A program made the position numbers and the translations under genes. 64,000 bases of DNA, taken from contig CANSWY010000002.1 in NCBI GenBank assembly GCA_947650915.1, positions 62,001-126,000 on the forward strand, given 5' to 3'. This stretch comes from an uncultured Eggerthellaceae bacterium. GTDB lineage: Bacteria; Actinomycetota; Coriobacteriia; Coriobacteriales; Eggerthellaceae. Below the pieces are notes generated by a model. That model saw only the letters and a list, made by a program, of their open reading frames with translations, was not told where the DNA came from and made no database searches. Of this stretch, positions 52,612-59,815 are shown piece after piece; positions within the stretch are counted from its first letter, which is position 1, and the number at the start of each line of letters is the position of its first letter.

Positions 52612-52709
52612 GATGTGCAAAAGGGACGTTCCAAATTGCACATAGGAACAGAGAACCAGCACTGAAAGATTGCTCCTATGTGCGATTTGGGACGTCCCTT
52701 TCGCACATC
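52612..52709 (+). repeat. Family A element A15
   Basis: Single core with loop GCACTGAAAG. The right arm reads CTTTCGC, giving one A:C mismatch with CAAAAG. A decayed arm lies just left of it. Follows the frc terminator. Confidence 0.9.
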
Positions 52710-52800
52710 AGAGGATGATGCACGGGGTGCAAGGGCGCTACGCGCGGAGCGCGTTGAAGCCCGCTCTTGAAAACAGCGGCCGCAAGGCCGCGACATGGCC
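52710..52800. repeat. Family D repeat (D3)
   Basis: GCAAGGGCGCTACGCGCGGA, then GCGTTGAAGCCCGC and TTGAAAACAGCGG, closely like D2. As with D2, it lies between two family A cores (A15 and A16). The 456-base gap 52527-52982 holds only this, A15, A16 and the frc terminator. Confidence 0.78.
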
Positions 52801-52858
52801 GGAGCCGAAGGCAGAGGCCATGACATAAGAGCGCGGCAGGGCAGGCGCAACCCCCTGC

Positions 52859-52956
52859 CATGTGCAAAAGGGACGTTCCAAATTGCACATAGGAAATGGC
52901 TGAACGCGCTGAAAGACTGTTTCTATGTGCAATTTGGGACGTCCCTTTTGCACATG
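52859..52956 (+). repeat. Family A element A16
   Basis: Single core with loop GCGCTGAAAG, 26 bases before the stop of the LPXTG gene, between convergent genes. Confidence 0.9.
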
Positions 52957-52982: not shown

Positions 52983-53909
52983 TCAGCTGCGGGTGGTGCG
53001 GCGGAGGATGAGGATGACGCCGCCGATGAGGGCGGCTGCGCCCGCTATCAGCAGCAGCGCGCTGATGTCCATCAGCTGGCCATCACCGGTCTGCGGAAGA
53101 TTGCTGTTGCCGGACCCGCTGCCGCCGTTCGCGCCGCCAGCGCCACTGCCCGTGCCGCCGTTGTTGCCGTTGTTGCCAGCGCCGCCGGAGCCATCCGGAT
53201 TCTGCGACCCGCCGATATCAGAGGTGTTGCCGCCAGGGACTGTGGTGTTGCCGCCCGGATTCGTGGTATTCCCGCCCGGCACCGTGGTGTTACCGCCGGG
53301 AACGGTGGTATTCCCGCCCGGAGCAGTGTTCCCCTCATCCGGCGGAGGCGTGCTGCCCCCTTCGGCCATCACCAGCTCGTCGTCAGGGGAGATGGTGGCG
53401 CTGCCCTCAGCGCCGTCCGTGCCGATCTGCACGAACTGCGTGACCGCCACCTTCGCAGCGCCTTCGGGCAGCGTGAACGTGCCCAGCTCCAGCGAAGCGT
53501 CCCTTGACAGCGCCCCCGTGCCGTTCGACACCACCACGCGCAGCTCGGCGCCATTCTGCACCACGTGGTCTGTGGGCAACGCCTCCGCCACCGGAGAGAA
53601 CGTGAACGAAGCGCCGGCGAGCGCCGTGCCGTCTGCACTGCGCGCCTCCAGGCCCACGTCGGCCGCGCGCAGGTTGTCCGCATCCGTCAGCGCAACCAGC
53701 ACGGCATCGTCGCCCTGCTTGGTGAGCGTCACCTTGCCCTCCGCCACGGCGACGCTGCTCTCAGCATCCACCGCGGAAGAAGCGCCGCCATCCGTATCAG
53801 CGAAAGCGGCTTGCGGCACAGACGCAGCGCCCATCATGAGGCCGAAGGCAAGCGCACCGGCTGCGAACAGCCTGGCGAACGCGCTGAAGGGCTTGATCGT
53901 TTCCATCAT
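52983..53909 (-). CDS. LPXTG-anchored surface protein with cohesin-like domain
   Basis: This 308-residue protein has a signal peptide (about 1-38), one beta domain of about 140 residues, a Gly/Asn/Thr-rich stalk with GGNTTVP repeats, and a C-terminal sorting signal LPQTGDG, hydrophobic stretch and RRTTRS tail. Sortase should link it to the cell wall. The beta domain has an order of conserved parts like cohesins: ALTDADNLRAADVGLEARSA, an FTFSPV segment, LRVVVSNGTGALSRDASLEL and FTLPEG. That match is by eye. It follows the dockerin-bearing giant gene by 28 bases in one operon, which suggests a docking pair. The start is chosen at ATGATG after AAAGGA. Confidence 0.72.
   Translation of the reverse strand: MMETIKPFSAFARLFAAGALAFGLMMGAASVPQAAFADTDGGASSAVDAESSVAVAEGKVTLTKQGDDAVLVALTDADNLRAADVGLEARSADGTALAGASFTFSPVAEALPTDHVVQNGAELRVVVSNGTGALSRDASLELGTFTLPEGAAKVAVTQFVQIGTDGAEGSATISPDDELVMAEGGSTPPPDEGNTAPGGNTTVPGGNTTVPGGNTTNPGGNTTVPGGNTSDIGGSQNPDGSGGAGNNGNNGGTGSGAGGANGGSGSGNSNLPQTGDGQLMDISALLLIAGAAALIGGVILILRRTTRS
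53225..53330. repeat. Stalk repeats of the LPXTG protein
   Basis: About five 21-base units encode GGNTTVP-type heptads (GGNTT plus VP, NP or AP). Copies differ mostly at third positions (GTGTT versus GTATT), so selection keeps the protein sequence. They form the Gly/Asn/Thr stalk before the sorting signal. Confidence 0.8.
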
Positions 53910-53937
53910 GAGATCCTTTCGCATTGCATCCGCGACG

Positions 53938-56900
53938 TCACGCCGAAACAGGGAGGCGCTCTGACGAACAGGACGCTGTGAGGACCGTGCCAGAACGGTA
54001 GAGCTGAGCGCTCACGAAGCTCCAATCGTCCACCGCATCCTCCCAGGTGCCCGGTTCGAAATACATCACCCACGTGCCGCTGGCGCTGTAGGAGATGTTG
54101 CCGCCTGGATCTGCGTCCGCCACGATGATCTGGCGCGCATCCTGGGATATCTCGTTGCCCAACACGTCGCGAAGCACGATGGTGCTCTTCGCCGGATCGC
54201 CCGTGAACGCACCGGACACCACCAGCGAACCGGCCGGGATCACCGTCATCGCACCCGGCTGCACGCCCTGGGCGCCCGCCTCCACGCGCACGTCTTCGTC
54301 AGCAACGCCCACTCCCGTGAGCTGGTCTTCGTCATCCTTCTGGAAAGAAACGGAATCCGGCAACGAGCCGATCACATCGATCTCAGCCACCGAACGCGGG
54401 CCATCTGACCCATCCAAGTCCGTGACGCGCAGGTAACGCGCGTTCTGCACGCTGATCTGCGCGCCGTCAGAACCATGTGCGCTGGGCATCACCATGGATT
54501 CCGTGAAGTAGACGGTGGCGCACTTCGACGCCGCGAACGTGGCCTCGCCCACTTCCTTGTATCCCACGCTGGTCCAGTTCACGCCGTCATCCGACACCTG
54601 CACCCACAGGCGTTTGAACGTGTTCTGCACGTCAGCGCCCGGGAAATAGCGGATGCCGCACGCGTCCGTGGCTTTGCCGAATGCGATGATGACGGACGGA
54701 TACGCGTTGCCGTCCGTGGCCGCGCCGCCCAGTGTGCCCACCGCTTCTCGGTTCGGGGTGCCGGTGTAGACCGTGCCCACGCTGCCATCCACGATGACAG
54801 CTGGATCGTCAGCGCTCTCCATGGTGGATTCCACCGTCCAGTACGCCTTGTTCAGGTTGCGCGGGAAGGCCGCCTGCACTTCGCCGGCCGGCGTCACATC
54901 CGAAACTGCCAAGGAAGTGTCAACGGCGCGCACGAAGTACGTGAGCGTCTGCCCGTTGTCCGAGGTCAACCGGTCCGTGAAGGTGGTCTGACCCGCAGGA
55001 ACGAAGCCGACCACCTCTCGCGTGGATTCGTCCGCACCCACCTGGCGCAGCACCTCCACGCCCAGGTTCGCGCGCACGCCCTCCTTGAGCTGGATGCCCG
55101 TGACCTCCACTTCGCCCACCTCGTTCGGACCCGTGGCCTGCACCGTGGCCGCCACCTGCGGCACGTCCGCCTGCGCCGTGTTCTGCGCACCGTTGCGGCT
55201 CTCATCCGTGATGAGCCAGATGCTGCGGCTCTCCTCGGGGAAGCTCTGCGCGTAGACGCGCGTGGCACCGCTGGGAGCCAGCCCCCATTTCTCGAAGAAC
55301 GGCAGCAGGTTCTTGCCGGACGCCGCGCATGCCAGGCGCATGACCGCGTCATCCGCGCTGATGCTCCCCAGGTTGAGTCCCGTGGGCGCCAGCTGCGGAT
55401 TGCGCACGTACGCGTTCATCCGCGCGAAGATCGAACCCTCCATGAGCTCATCCGCATTCGCGAACTCCGTGTACGAGAAACCATCATCGTAAGCCAGATG
55501 CAGCTGCCAGAGCACAGCGGTGGCCAGATCGTCCGGCATGGAATCCAACCTGCGGGCCGTGGGGTTGTCCAGATAAGCGCTCACCTTGTCATAGCTGAAG
55601 CGCAGACCTGGGCCGCCGTCCACACTGGACGCATTGGTGTCCGAAGCCGTGACCAGCTGCGCGCCGAAGCTGGCGAACGCCTGCGGGAGATCCACATCCG
55701 CGGGCACCAGGGCCTTCGCGGCCGCCAGGCTCACATCCCACCCGTACAGAGCGCCATAGGTGCGCTTGCCGCTGGCGTCCGTTTGCAGCGTGGGGGCCGT
55801 GCCCATCCCCTTGAGCTGATCCCACTCCAGCGCCAAGAAGTTGCTCATGGCCTGCGCGCCATCCGTGCCCAGGTCAGCGCGCTGATAACGGAAGTTCATG
55901 CGCGCGGAGGGCAGCGCGTTGTCTTCGCCATAAGCGGCCACCGCGCCCGCGTTCGCCGGGTCAGCCACATCGAACAGGCCCGCCTGCTGGTAGAGCAGCC
56001 GGAGCATCTTGTCCGTGAGCGGCAGGCCCTGCGCCAGCGAGCCCGCATCAAGGTTCTCCAGCATGAGCGTGGCCGGAGCAGAGATGACGGCGCTGGACGT
56101 GACGATCTCCGTGGCATTCGAAATGCAGAGCGTCTCGTCGTAGTCACCGGTGTGCGCGCCGTCCGCGTGCTTCTGCCTGATGGCGTTCACGTGATCCCGC
56201 AGTTGCGACGCATAGGACGTGCACGCCGCGCTGATCTGGCCTGCGCTCACCGCGCTCGAGATGTCCAGCAGCGGGATCTCTTGGGCGCCCACGGTCTTCA
56301 CTTGATATGCCGGGCAGCCCGCCTCCTCATACTCCACATACAGAGCGCCGCCGCGTTCGACGCCGTGGCTCAGCTGCGGAACGGTGAAGGAGTTGATGCC
56401 CAATTTCAGATAGCCCAGCGAAGCCCATTCGGTTTCCGAACCGTGCTGTTGCACATGGACCAGGCGCAGCTTCGTGGCGTCGCCCACCGTTGCGCCATCC
56501 GCGTCACCAGCAGGCGTCACATTCACCTGCACCTTCGCGCCAGCCGCGGCCACCACGCCCAAAGGCTGCCAGGCATTCATGCCCGCGCGCGTGCCCGCAG
56601 CGCTGTTGATGTCCGGGTTCGCCGTCACCGTGCGCGAGACCTCCTGCCCCAGCAGCGCCTCGGCCAGGTCCAGCTCTGCCAGCAGTTCGTCCGCGCGCCA
56701 GTACAGCTCCGCCGTCTCGTTCGGCGGCGTGTTCGAGTCAGTGTCGGGCGTGCTCAGCAGCTCGCGCAGCGAACGGATGGTGCCCGCGTCGACAGAGCTG
56801 TTCAGCTCCGTCTTGAACGAGCCGGGCACGAACAGGTTCTCCACCTCTTCCTGGAACGTGGCCGCATCATAGAACGCCAGTTCAGAGATGGTGATCGGCG

Positions 56901-59463
56901 CACCGTCCGCACGGGTGAAGAAGACTTCCACCTGGCTGACGTTCCGCACCATGGTGGGCAACGTGATCATGATGGTGTTGGTGGCCACCTCTGTTGAGCC
57001 GTCGCGCAGAGGCGCGCTGTCCCAGGTGAGACCGCTGTCCTTCGTGTACGTGGTGGTGGTGCGGACGCCCGACACCACGCGCACCTGCACGTCTTCGATG
57101 CCATCCGCATACCCGTTGCCCAAGTTCGTGGACAGCGCCAGGTCGCGGATGTTGTGCGACTGACGGAACGTGGCCTTCGCGCCGGTGCTGAACGAGGGCA
57201 GTGCGTCCGTTGGCAGCTCAACGGCGGTGTTGTAGTCACCGTCCACCATCGCGCGGCCGGCCTCTTCGCTGCCGCCCAGCGTGACGCTGCTGAAGACGTT
57301 CTCCGGCGGGTTGGCCTGCGGATCCTGCACGGCGCGGTTGATGAGGCCGTACCAGGGCACCTTCGTGGTGACGTAGGTGGTGCGCGCCGTGAGCGTTTCC
57401 GGCGTGCCCGTCTCTTCGCTGGAGCCGAATTCGTTCACCGCCACCACCGTGATGGCGAACTCCGTTTCGTTCGGCAGGGGGCGCACCGTGAGCTGGGTGT
57501 CCGTGGTCTCATGCTGGCCGCTGACCGTGCCGCCCACCTCTGACCAGCGCACCACGTAATGGTCGGCGCGGTCGACGGCGTTCCATGTGGCCGTGATCTC
57601 CTGGTAGCCGGCCGTGAGCGCCAGGCCAGTGGGATTGGCCGGCGGCGCCTTCAACTGGGGCGTGGCCGTGACCGTGGGGCCCCAGTCGCTCTTGGCGTCA
57701 TCTTCGCTGACGGAGCGCACCCGCAGGGAATAGGTGGTGCCGTTCTCGAGCGGCTGGCCGCCGAACGCGGTCACCTGGATGCGCGGCTGGATCGTGCTGA
57801 CGATCTCAGGATCCGCGCCTTCACGCGAAAGCTCCACTTCGTAGGCCACGTTGTTGTACGCGGCGTTCCACTCGGCTTCGATCAGGCGGTCATCCGTTTT
57901 GGTGATGGTGAGACCCTCCGGCGTGGTGGGCAGCGGCGTGGGATCCGGCTCGTCCGGACCGGGCTGGTCAGGGCCGGGGCCTTCCGGACCGGCGCCGTTC
58001 GTGGCCTCATAACGGATGCGCGTGAGCTGCACCAGCGTGTCATCCGGCCCCGACGCTTCGGTGAACGTGAAATCCAGGTCGTACATCTTCACGTTCTCGC
58101 CCAGGTTCACGTGGATGTAGCCCGCCGCGCGGTCCACCTTCGCCGTGACATAGGGCAGCACCGTGTGGTCCGGCGCTTCGAACGCATGATCGCAGGGGAT
58201 GGGGATGGTGAGCTGACAGTCTTCGCCGTCCTTTTCGAATGCCATGGTGAGCGTGCCCGCCGTGGGCATGCTGGCGCCCGCGCCGCCTTCCCGGGGCGCG
58301 TAGAGCGTGATGCGGTCCATGAGCACGCCGTTCGCGTTCAACGAGAGCGTGACCGGCAGATCCTCAGACACGGGCACCTTGGTAGCGCCAGGCACGGTGT
58401 TCGCGCTGGCCGTGAAGCCCACGGTGCGGCCGCGGTTCTCCAGCAGCAAGCGCAGCGCCGCTTCGGCTTCGGCACCGGTGACCACCTTGCCGTCCAGCAA
58501 GATGGAGGTGCCTTCGGGAACCTCCGGATCAGTCTGCGTGGTGTCCGGGAGCTCCGTGACGTTCTGCGGAGCGCGCGACGTGCTGCCCTTGACCGCGGTG
58601 AGCGCCTGCACGTCCTTCAGGGTGACCATGCCGTCCCCTGTCAGGTCGTAGAGGACATCTTCGCTGCCCTGCACATAGGCTTCGGAGAGCAGGCGTGTGT
58701 CCTCATCATCCAGCGCGCCGTTGCCGTTGAAGTCACCATAGGGAAGGAAGGCCGCGTCCGCATCTTCTTCAGCGCGGTCCGCGCTGTCCACGACGGTGAA
58801 CGAGTGCTTCATGCCCGCCTTGCATTCCAGATCGAACGTGAGGGAGAGGTGCTTCGCGCCGCTCAACGTGACGGAATGTGTGCCGGGAGCGATGCCCGTG
58901 AGCGTGGCCGAGCGCACCGTGCCGCCCGCGCCGGCCGACGCGAAGGCCGCAGATGCACCGTTGACGCTGAGGGTGAGCGCATCCCCGGCCGCCTCCAGCG
59001 CGTCCATGGCCATGGGATGGGCGGTGCGGAACGTGACCTCCACGCTGGCCGCATCGGCTGCACGGCTCTTGTCGATGGAGACCTCTTCTTCAGCAGGCGC
59101 GCTTTCGCCGTCCGCGCCTTTCGCTTCGTCCTCCCCGTTTCCGCCGGTGAAGAAGCCGATGATGGCGTCGATGAAGGATGGATCCTCCTCTGGTTGCTGT
59201 GCAGGGGCGTTCGGGGCTGTGTCCGCTTCGTCGTTGTAGACGGGCTCTTTGGACTCTTCGGGCTGCGTTGGCGCGGAGGCATCAACGTCCTCTTTCTTGA
59301 CCGGGCCCGTGGCGCCTTCAGGCAGCGCGCCCTCCTGTTCGCTGGCGATGGCCTCGCGCATGCCGACCTCTGTGCGATCCGCGCTGGCGAACGCCGCGGC
59401 CGGCGCTCCGAACAGCGAAAAGGCCAACGCGAAAGCGCTGACGCTGGATACGATCTTCTTCAA
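53938..59463 (-). CDS. Giant secreted protein: dockerin, FN3 pair, M60-like pseudopeptidase, discoidin-like domains
   Basis: This 1841-residue protein is exported by a signal peptide (MKKIVSSVSAFALAFSLFG start). A TTG start at 59463 follows AGGAGG. Domains in order: acidic linker; Type I dockerin with two calcium loops (DFNGNGALDDED and DLTGDGMVTLKD, about 242-294); beta region; two FN3 domains (about 513-694); discoidin-like region (about 705-870); M60-like domain (about 940-1422); discoidin/CBM32-like region (about 1535-1695); terminal beta domain. In M60 peptidases YGWDV is followed by HExxH; here residues 1246-1250 are LAAAK, so the zinc site is gone. The domain's other landmarks remain (FEKWGLAP, QLHLAYDDGF). 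It lacks its own wall anchor. Confidence 0.85.
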   Translation of the reverse strand: MKKIVSSVSAFALAFSLFGAPAAAFASADRTEVGMREAIASEQEGALPEGATGPVKKEDVDASAPTQPEESKEPVYNDEADTAPNAPAQQPEEDPSFIDAIIGFFTGGNGEDEAKGADGESAPAEEEVSIDKSRAADAASVEVTFRTAHPMAMDALEAAGDALTLSVNGASAAFASAGAGGTVRSATLTGIAPGTHSVTLSGAKHLSLTFDLECKAGMKHSFTVVDSADRAEEDADAAFLPYGDFNGNGALDDEDTRLLSEAYVQGSEDVLYDLTGDGMVTLKDVQALTAVKGSTSRAPQNVTELPDTTQTDPEVPEGTSILLDGKVVTGAEAEAALRLLLENRGRTVGFTASANTVPGATKVPVSEDLPVTLSLNANGVLMDRITLYAPREGGAGASMPTAGTLTMAFEKDGEDCQLTIPIPCDHAFEAPDHTVLPYVTAKVDRAAGYIHVNLGENVKMYDLDFTFTEASGPDDTLVQLTRIRYEATNGAGPEGPGPDQPGPDEPDPTPLPTTPEGLTITKTDDRLIEAEWNAAYNNVAYEVELSREGADPEIVSTIQPRIQVTAFGGQPLENGTTYSLRVRSVSEDDAKSDWGPTVTATPQLKAPPANPTGLALTAGYQEITATWNAVDRADHYVVRWSEVGGTVSGQHETTDTQLTVRPLPNETEFAITVVAVNEFGSSEETGTPETLTARTTYVTTKVPWYGLINRAVQDPQANPPENVFSSVTLGGSEEAGRAMVDGDYNTAVELPTDALPSFSTGAKATFRQSHNIRDLALSTNLGNGYADGIEDVQVRVVSGVRTTTTYTKDSGLTWDSAPLRDGSTEVATNTIMITLPTMVRNVSQVEVFFTRADGAPITISELAFYDAATFQEEVENLFVPGSFKTELNSSVDAGTIRSLRELLSTPDTDSNTPPNETAELYWRADELLAELDLAEALLGQEVSRTVTANPDINSAAGTRAGMNAWQPLGVVAAAGAKVQVNVTPAGDADGATVGDATKLRLVHVQQHGSETEWASLGYLKLGINSFTVPQLSHGVERGGALYVEYEEAGCPAYQVKTVGAQEIPLLDISSAVSAGQISAACTSYASQLRDHVNAIRQKHADGAHTGDYDETLCISNATEIVTSSAVISAPATLMLENLDAGSLAQGLPLTDKMLRLLYQQAGLFDVADPANAGAVAAYGEDNALPSARMNFRYQRADLGTDGAQAMSNFLALEWDQLKGMGTAPTLQTDASGKRTYGALYGWDVSLAAAKALVPADVDLPQAFASFGAQLVTASDTNASSVDGGPGLRFSYDKVSAYLDNPTARRLDSMPDDLATAVLWQLHLAYDDGFSYTEFANADELMEGSIFARMNAYVRNPQLAPTGLNLGSISADDAVMRLACAASGKNLLPFFEKWGLAPSGATRVYAQSFPEESRSIWLITDESRNGAQNTAQADVPQVAATVQATGPNEVGEVEVTGIQLKEGVRANLGVEVLRQVGADESTREVVGFVPAGQTTFTDRLTSDNGQTLTYFVRAVDTSLAVSDVTPAGEVQAAFPRNLNKAYWTVESTMESADDPAVIVDGSVGTVYTGTPNREAVGTLGGAATDGNAYPSVIIAFGKATDACGIRYFPGADVQNTFKRLWVQVSDDGVNWTSVGYKEVGEATFAASKCATVYFTESMVMPSAHGSDGAQISVQNARYLRVTDLDGSDGPRSVAEIDVIGSLPDSVSFQKDDEDQLTGVGVADEDVRVEAGAQGVQPGAMTVIPAGSLVVSGAFTGDPAKSTIVLRDVLGNEISQDARQIIVADADPGGNISYSASGTWVMYFEPGTWEDAVDDWSFVSAQLYRSGTVLTASCSSERLPVSA

Positions 59464-59626
59464 TCCCAGACCTCCTGACCTGAGGAGGCGTCCCTCTGGA
59501 CGCAGCCGCCGCTGGGCGCACGTCACCCGCAGCTCTCAGTGTTGCGGGAATTATAACAATCCGGTAACAAGAAAACCGCCTCCGAACAGGGAAAACACCC
59601 GTCGCACACAAACACCCCCACCCTCG

Positions 59627-59815
59627 TATGTGCAAAGGGGACGTTCCAAATTGCACAGAGGAGTGAGTGTCCTGATGTGCAAAAGGGACGTTCCAAATCG
59701 CACATAGGAAAAGATGATGCGCACTGAAAGTCTTCTCCTATGTGCAATTTGGGACGTCCCTTTTGCACATCCAGGCAACCCCGCAGGTGCGATTTGGGAC
59801 GCCCCTTTGCACATC
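59627..59815 (+). repeat. Family A element A17 (four arms)
   Basis: Arm 1 at 59627, core 59674-59771, fourth arm to 59815 with spacer GGCAACCCCGCAGG. It lies 17 bases before the phosphohexomutase stop. The rest of the 369-base gap (59464-59626) shows no gene; it is the leader of the giant gene. Confidence 0.92.

Follow-up and report, generated by a model that had tools for sequence, protein, structure and literature searches.

Two adjacent genes on the minus strand of the window (the whole 64,000-nucleotide stretch of DNA analysed, part of a 1.98 Mb draft genome whose closest relatives lie in the Eggerthellaceae) encode a giant secreted protein with a dockerin (P0001) and a small sortase-type anchored protein (P0002) whose one β domain is predicted to fold as a cohesin. 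We interpret the pair as a dedicated surface tether of one cohesin and one dockerin, a reading to which we give a probability of about 0.83. The genome contains another such pair and relatives conserve the arrangement, so the pairing is more than chance. The features of both genes are collected in Table 1.

Table 1. Features of the two-gene operon (window coordinates) and the basis of each assignment
Feature	Position	Strand	Basis
Gene 1, giant secreted protein (P0001)	53938..59463	-	~1841 aa from TTG 59463; homologous to P0003 over its length
Signal peptide LKKIVSSVSAFALAFSLFGAPAAAFASA	59380..59463	-	Read from sequence
β-rich module immediately ahead of dockerin	58792..59055	-	Alignment with paralogue
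Dockerin, two F-hand calcium loops	58585..58737	-	Family profile E 4.7e-10; Pfam sub-threshold
Two fibronectin type III domains	57379..57933	-	Pfam fn3 E 3.8e-10
M60 peptidase-like domain and accessory region	55027..56814	-	AlphaFold2 pLDDT 84.2; Foldseek best E 7.5e-17
Lost zinc motif	55714..55728	-	LAAAK in place of the HEIGH of relatives
F5/8 type C (galactose-binding-like) domain	54502..54720	-	Pfam E 4.6e-5, slightly below curated cut-off
Gene 2, secreted sortase-type anchored protein (P0002)	52983..53924	-	Likely start ATG 53909
Cohesin-fold domain	53349..53756	-	AlphaFold2, Foldseek and VIA; Bacillota-only profile E 2e-4
Gly/Asn/Thr/Pro low-complexity wall-spanning linker	53100..53348	-	Read from sequence
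LPQTG sorting signal, hydrophobic helix and basic tail	52986..53099	-	Gram_pos_anchor E 0.0013, slightly below cut-off

The dockerin giant and its anchored neighbour

The open reading frame of the giant, called mechanically, runs from 53938 to 59526 (−) and ends at 53938; TTG 59463 is its likely start, as AGGAGG precedes it and a signal peptide follows. The earlier note on this DNA had described a secreted, anchorless giant with a two-loop dockerin whose calcium residues are in place, followed after 28 bases by a sortase-anchored protein with a single β domain, and each of these points is borne out. In the last 150 residues of the giant a check for a C-terminal transmembrane-like segment found no membrane anchor. 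Its dockerin has the two F-hand loops in ∼ 50–60 residues of type I dockerins: the loops DFNGNGALDDED and DLTGDGMVTLKD carry acidic, Asn or Thr ligands at positions 1, 3, 5, 9 and 12, and residues 264–314 match the dockerin profile made from the giant's relatives (Table 1). Pfam Dockerin_1 (PF00404) scores the giant at E 0.38, below its cut-off, the paralogue above it and the sampled relatives above it in five of six cases. The β-rich module that precedes the dockerin recalls, and may correspond to, the X module of X-dockerin dyads; the equivalent module of the paralogue P0003 (residues 145–211) matches CarboxypepD_reg/PEGA. The F5/8C domain likewise has a counterpart in P0003, there above the Pfam cut-off.

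For gene 2, ATG 53909, behind AAAGGATCT, is the better-placed start and gives the 28-base gap to gene 1. P0002 ends in LPQTG, a hydrophobic helix and the positive tail RRTTRS, its single β domain lying further upstream, and one sortase is found above cut-off in the genome. Attachment of P0002 to the wall by this sortase is predicted.

The β domain of P0002 was modelled with AlphaFold2 from an alignment with 51 relatives (pLDDT 81.1, pTM 0.73), and the predicted model has the nine-stranded jelly-roll of the cohesins. In a Foldseek search of the PDB cohesins hold ranks 1 to 26, headed by 2xdh, the non-cellulosomal cohesin of Archaeoglobus (E 4.3e-4), and the OlpA and ScaE cohesins are among the structural matches. 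A second comparison with VIA-align gave Z values of 11.4 (2xdh), 11.2 (Clostridium perfringens 2vo8) and 11.0 (2jh2); its best 24 rows are cohesins throughout and the first non-cohesin is ClfA (Z 9.2). With TM-scores of ∼ 0.5–0.58 and a modest Foldseek E value (4e-4) the match to cohesins is clear by rank, not close in detail, and the jelly-rolls of YcnI, ClfA and UafA lie only ∼ 2 Z units below. By its predicted fold we assign the domain as a cohesin. The earlier note had arrived at a cohesin-like domain by pattern reading, and the structural comparison upholds it, since the best matches are cohesins rather than an unrelated Ig-like fold.

Neither Pfam nor NCBIfam has a model that matches the P0002 domain, and neither calls a cohesin on its relatives. 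The Pfam Cohesin family (PF00963) has no match anywhere in the genome and is not among the families reported for the 49 members of the new family that were searched, so that any match there would lie above E 0.1. Taken alone, the missing call would have argued against a cohesin; it is a failure of the sequence profile, not of the fold. A profile search against the sequences of the PDB likewise gave no usable match.

A second pair and the pairing in relatives

A search of the genome with Dockerin_1, of the kind suggested in the earlier note, led to one further dockerin giant (P0003, 1890 aa) beside a cohesin gene of its own. P0003 combines fn3 and F5/8C domains, a Pfam-level M60 peptidase with intact HEIGH and a dockerin, and aligns with P0001 over the whole length at 25% identity. 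P0004, 10 bases past the P0003 frame, is secreted and anchored and has one β domain. BLASTP finds similarity between P0002 and P0004 in the tails only, and their kinship is seen only by profile and fold. A third dockerin-like match in the genome, on C11, covers 16 profile positions at E 0.56 and was discounted as a chance hit.

The genome totals exactly two cohesins of the new family and two dockerins, arranged as two adjacent gene pairs. This is not the composition of a cellulosome or mucinolysome, with a multi-cohesin scaffoldin and many dockerin enzymes; both cohesin proteins are of the single-cohesin type. At the sensitivity of these searches the counts exclude a multi-cohesin scaffoldin and leave one obvious partner per dockerin. 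The pairing might nevertheless be looser than one-to-one, with the giant docking the paralogous cohesin or a foreign scaffoldin, or with the neighbouring gene serving several cargoes. Cellulosomes commonly show dual binding, this genome itself has two similar pairs and one relative (L122, see below) has a second dockerin of its own. We regard this arrangement as unlikely, although it is the most serious of the alternatives, given that the only two dockerins of the genome each adjoin their own cohesin and differ strongly from each other, as do the two cohesins. A one-to-one specificity would fit these observations better.

A search with P0002 itself returned only the congeneric orthologue, and the giant was therefore taken as bait. 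Homologues of the giant occur in 16 of 138 genomes of the host family, and a small secreted anchored gene follows in every genome examined that has a complete giant and enough downstream sequence. When 84,980 public genomes were scanned with the alignment of the giants, 404 related stretches were obtained, of which 80 were kept; as the scan relied on M60 active-site motifs, it is biased towards active enzymes. The kept loci belong to Eggerthella, Gordonibacter and Adlercreutzia and to many Bacillota (Lachnospiraceae, Gemmiger, Amedibacillus, Merdibacter, Eubacterium plexicaudatum). The gene pair that the earlier note had read as a possible docking system in an actinobacterium is not peculiar to actinobacteria, being found in many gut Bacillota as well.

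A cohesin profile built from Bacillota members only detects the domain directly downstream of the giant, or fused to it (one locus), in 79 of these 80 loci. In 78 loci the domain begins 47 to 278 bases past the giant's stop, and among the best four profile matches per locus none falls outside the adjacent frame. The matches of the 46 loci that fed the profile come by construction; independent matches were obtained in 29 of 29 other Bacillota loci, in four of five from Eggerthellaceae and in the window (E 2e-4). At the single miss (L055, Adlercreutzia) a homologous-looking small gene occupies the position. Divergent Eggerthellaceae partners (L028, L031, L032, L040 and L041) also escape the Bacillota-only profile and were recognized by position and with a mixed profile. 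A C-terminal membrane segment is present in none of 85 giants and in 68 of 85 partners. Between 15 and 17 partner proteins are without one; they include L048, L051, L094, L099, L103–L105, L108, L113 and L116, several with an fn3-like tail. Some dockerins retain one good calcium loop and still have their cohesin partner, the second loop being degenerate in L031, L032, L096 and L114 and the first in L055 and L064, suggesting a single mode of binding. For the tether proposed here, the partners lacking a membrane segment and the pairs with a degenerate second loop are adverse evidence.

The fused locus, from an uncultured Lachnospiraceae bacterium (L122:2203-8313), is a natural Doc-M60-Coh-Doc protein in a single frame. 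Its giant–cohesin junction has no signal peptide and a further dockerin follows the cohesin, so that the protein could self-assemble or chain. By contrast, three host-family M60 proteins (G027, G092 and G119, which do not count as homologues of the giant at the threshold applied) have no dockerin and, in the sequence examined, no cohesin neighbour. The two complete ones (L144:3627-9650 and L145:3112-8205) end in a hydrophobic anchor-like segment of their own. The fusion and these controls indicate that dockerin and adjacent cohesin come and go together, and that a self-anchored M60 protein has neither. A mirror-tree comparison of dockerin and cohesin beyond the M60 domain (residual correlation 0.156, permutation sd 0.048) adds weak support for co-divergence.

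These data bear on a further explanation, that P0002 is an ordinary sortase-anchored adhesin whose cohesin-like jelly-roll binds a host ligand and which is co-transcribed with the giant without docking it. MSCRAMM-type domains (ClfA, UafA) do match the P0002 domain, with Z ∼ 9. Cohesins rank above them, however, and the domain accompanies the dockerin, is absent beside dockerin-less M60 proteins and exists fused to a giant in L122; an adhesin of this kind is, in our view, improbable. The predicted fold, the pairing, the fusion and the controls together point to docking of the giant by its neighbour.

An M60-like cargo and its lost active site

The earlier note did not recognize that the giant is a relative of the M60 mucin peptidases with its active site gone. 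In a Foldseek search with the M60-like model of the giant, the best 24 chains are all M60 glycopeptidases and are the sole confident matches, in keeping with an M60 fold for the predicted model; the C. perfringens O-glycopeptidases ZmpA, ZmpB and ZmpC rank with the nearest relatives of known structure for the M60-type domains described here. HExxH and the distant Glu are present in the paralogue P0003 and missing from the giant, where the zinc-site residues H, E and H are replaced by L, A and K, and the third ligand, E, by Q. Pfam M60 does not match the window giant. In an alignment with 45 relatives, 127 columns are conserved in 95% or more of them; the giant retains 76 of these columns, and those it has lost are concentrated around the active site. 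The zinc motif is likewise lost in the congeneric orthologue. Comparison of the two gives dN 0.42, dS 0.99 and dN/dS ∼ 0.42, a value that we take as a sign of purifying selection. P0003 is related to the solved M60 O-glycopeptidases (best C. perfringens ZmpC, E 3.6e-14), enzymes that cut O-glycosylated, mucin-type proteins (PMC13355702).

We take the window's giant to be a pseudo-enzyme retained for another purpose, and infer that it is probably a surface binder of O-glycosylated host protein. That the window's pair is instead a remnant of the active paralogous pair, decaying and heading for loss, seems very unlikely: all zinc ligands and the Pfam M60 match have gone and the pair evolves faster than the active one (51% versus 70% identity between two species), but the full-length frame, dockerin and cohesin partner are retained in both species, dN/dS for the giant is 0.42 and the fold of the M60-like domain is still modelled at high confidence.

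Proposed docking, known systems and flanking repeats

In the tether that we propose, both proteins would be secreted and sortase would join the small protein to the cell wall through LPQTG, presenting its single cohesin. The dockerin of the anchorless giant would plug into this cohesin in a calcium-dependent manner, and the fn3, F5/8C and M60-like domains of the docked giant would face outward. Most relatives have an intact M60 O-glycopeptidase (a mucinase) as cargo, and this genome has one pair with such an enzyme and, in the window, one with a catalytically dead M60 homologue. We lean towards a broader reading, on balance somewhat better than an even chance, in which a cohesin family invisible to Pfam and NCBIfam is the dedicated wall-anchored partner of dockerin M60 mucinases across gut Bacillota and Eggerthellaceae, a minimal display of one cohesin, one dockerin and one cargo, and in which the second copy in this genus is a displayed dead mucinase serving as a mucin-binding adhesin.

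Single surface-fixed cohesins that retain a dockerin-bearing partner are known in OlpA of Clostridium thermocellum and ScaE of Ruminococcus flavefaciens. Their partners are scaffoldins or plant-fibre enzymes encoded at other places in the genome, whereas the partner here is one adjacent peptidase-like gene. The non-cellulosomal cohesin/dockerin (X82) modules of the C. perfringens GH toxins also use single cohesins, and three structures (2vo8, 2jh2 and 2w1n) rank with the best structural matches of the P0002 domain. In C. perfringens five of five cohesins are on glycoside hydrolases, and enzyme pairs with enzyme (PMC12997984); the cohesin described here is, in contrast, on a non-catalytic wall protein encoded beside its cargo. 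The Limousia mucinolysome resembles the present pair in its cohesin–dockerin display, there of mucin-attacking enzymes including peptidases, and in its sortase-anchored cohesin protein, cSca5 (Gut Microbes 2026, PMC12997984). It has multi-cohesin scaffoldins and many enzymes and is detected by Pfam, whereas the present system has one cohesin, one dockerin and one cargo, and its cohesin is invisible to Pfam.

The Peptidase_M60/M60-like proteins (PF13402) share the fold, the F5/8C and fn3-type partners and the host-associated bacteria (Nakjang 2012, PMC3267712; Bacteroides caccae enzymes, PMC13355702); unlike these enzymes, the window giant is without HExxH and the third ligand. Passages of the 2012 survey list an Eggerthella lenta member and a dockerin in two entries, and mention no cohesin partner (PMC3267712). 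Cohesin–dockerin display of mucin-attacking enzymes is already known. For a dedicated dockerin–cohesin M60 pair we found no description in the open-access literature; what is apparently new is the unrecognized cohesin family, its constant association with M60 giants in two phyla and the variant with a dead enzyme.

Pfam surveys of human gut genomes report dockerins in 26,894 genomes versus cohesins in 6,562 (PMC12997984), so that many dockerins look like orphans. If our reading is correct, a widespread cohesin family missed by Pfam would explain part of this gap and make it testable, and gut commensals would hold a large mucin-cutting protease on their surface by a device far simpler than a cellulosome. 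The pseudo-enzyme copy would illustrate clearly how a protease of host glycoproteins has become a probable binder. The relatives include cultured hosts (e.g. Eggerthella sinensis, Amedibacillus dolichus and E. plexicaudatum), which makes the pairing idea directly testable.

A promoter scan of the operon region gave nothing above chance. A 30-base repeat, TGTGCAATTTGGAACGTCCCTTTTGCACAT, arranged in inverted pairs ∼ 66 bases apart, is present in 46 copies in the window, where none is expected by chance, and its core in ∼ 500 copies in the genome. The repeats border the operon on both sides (52613–52955 and 59628–59770), recur at ∼ 20 further places in the window and appear REP- or MITE-like.
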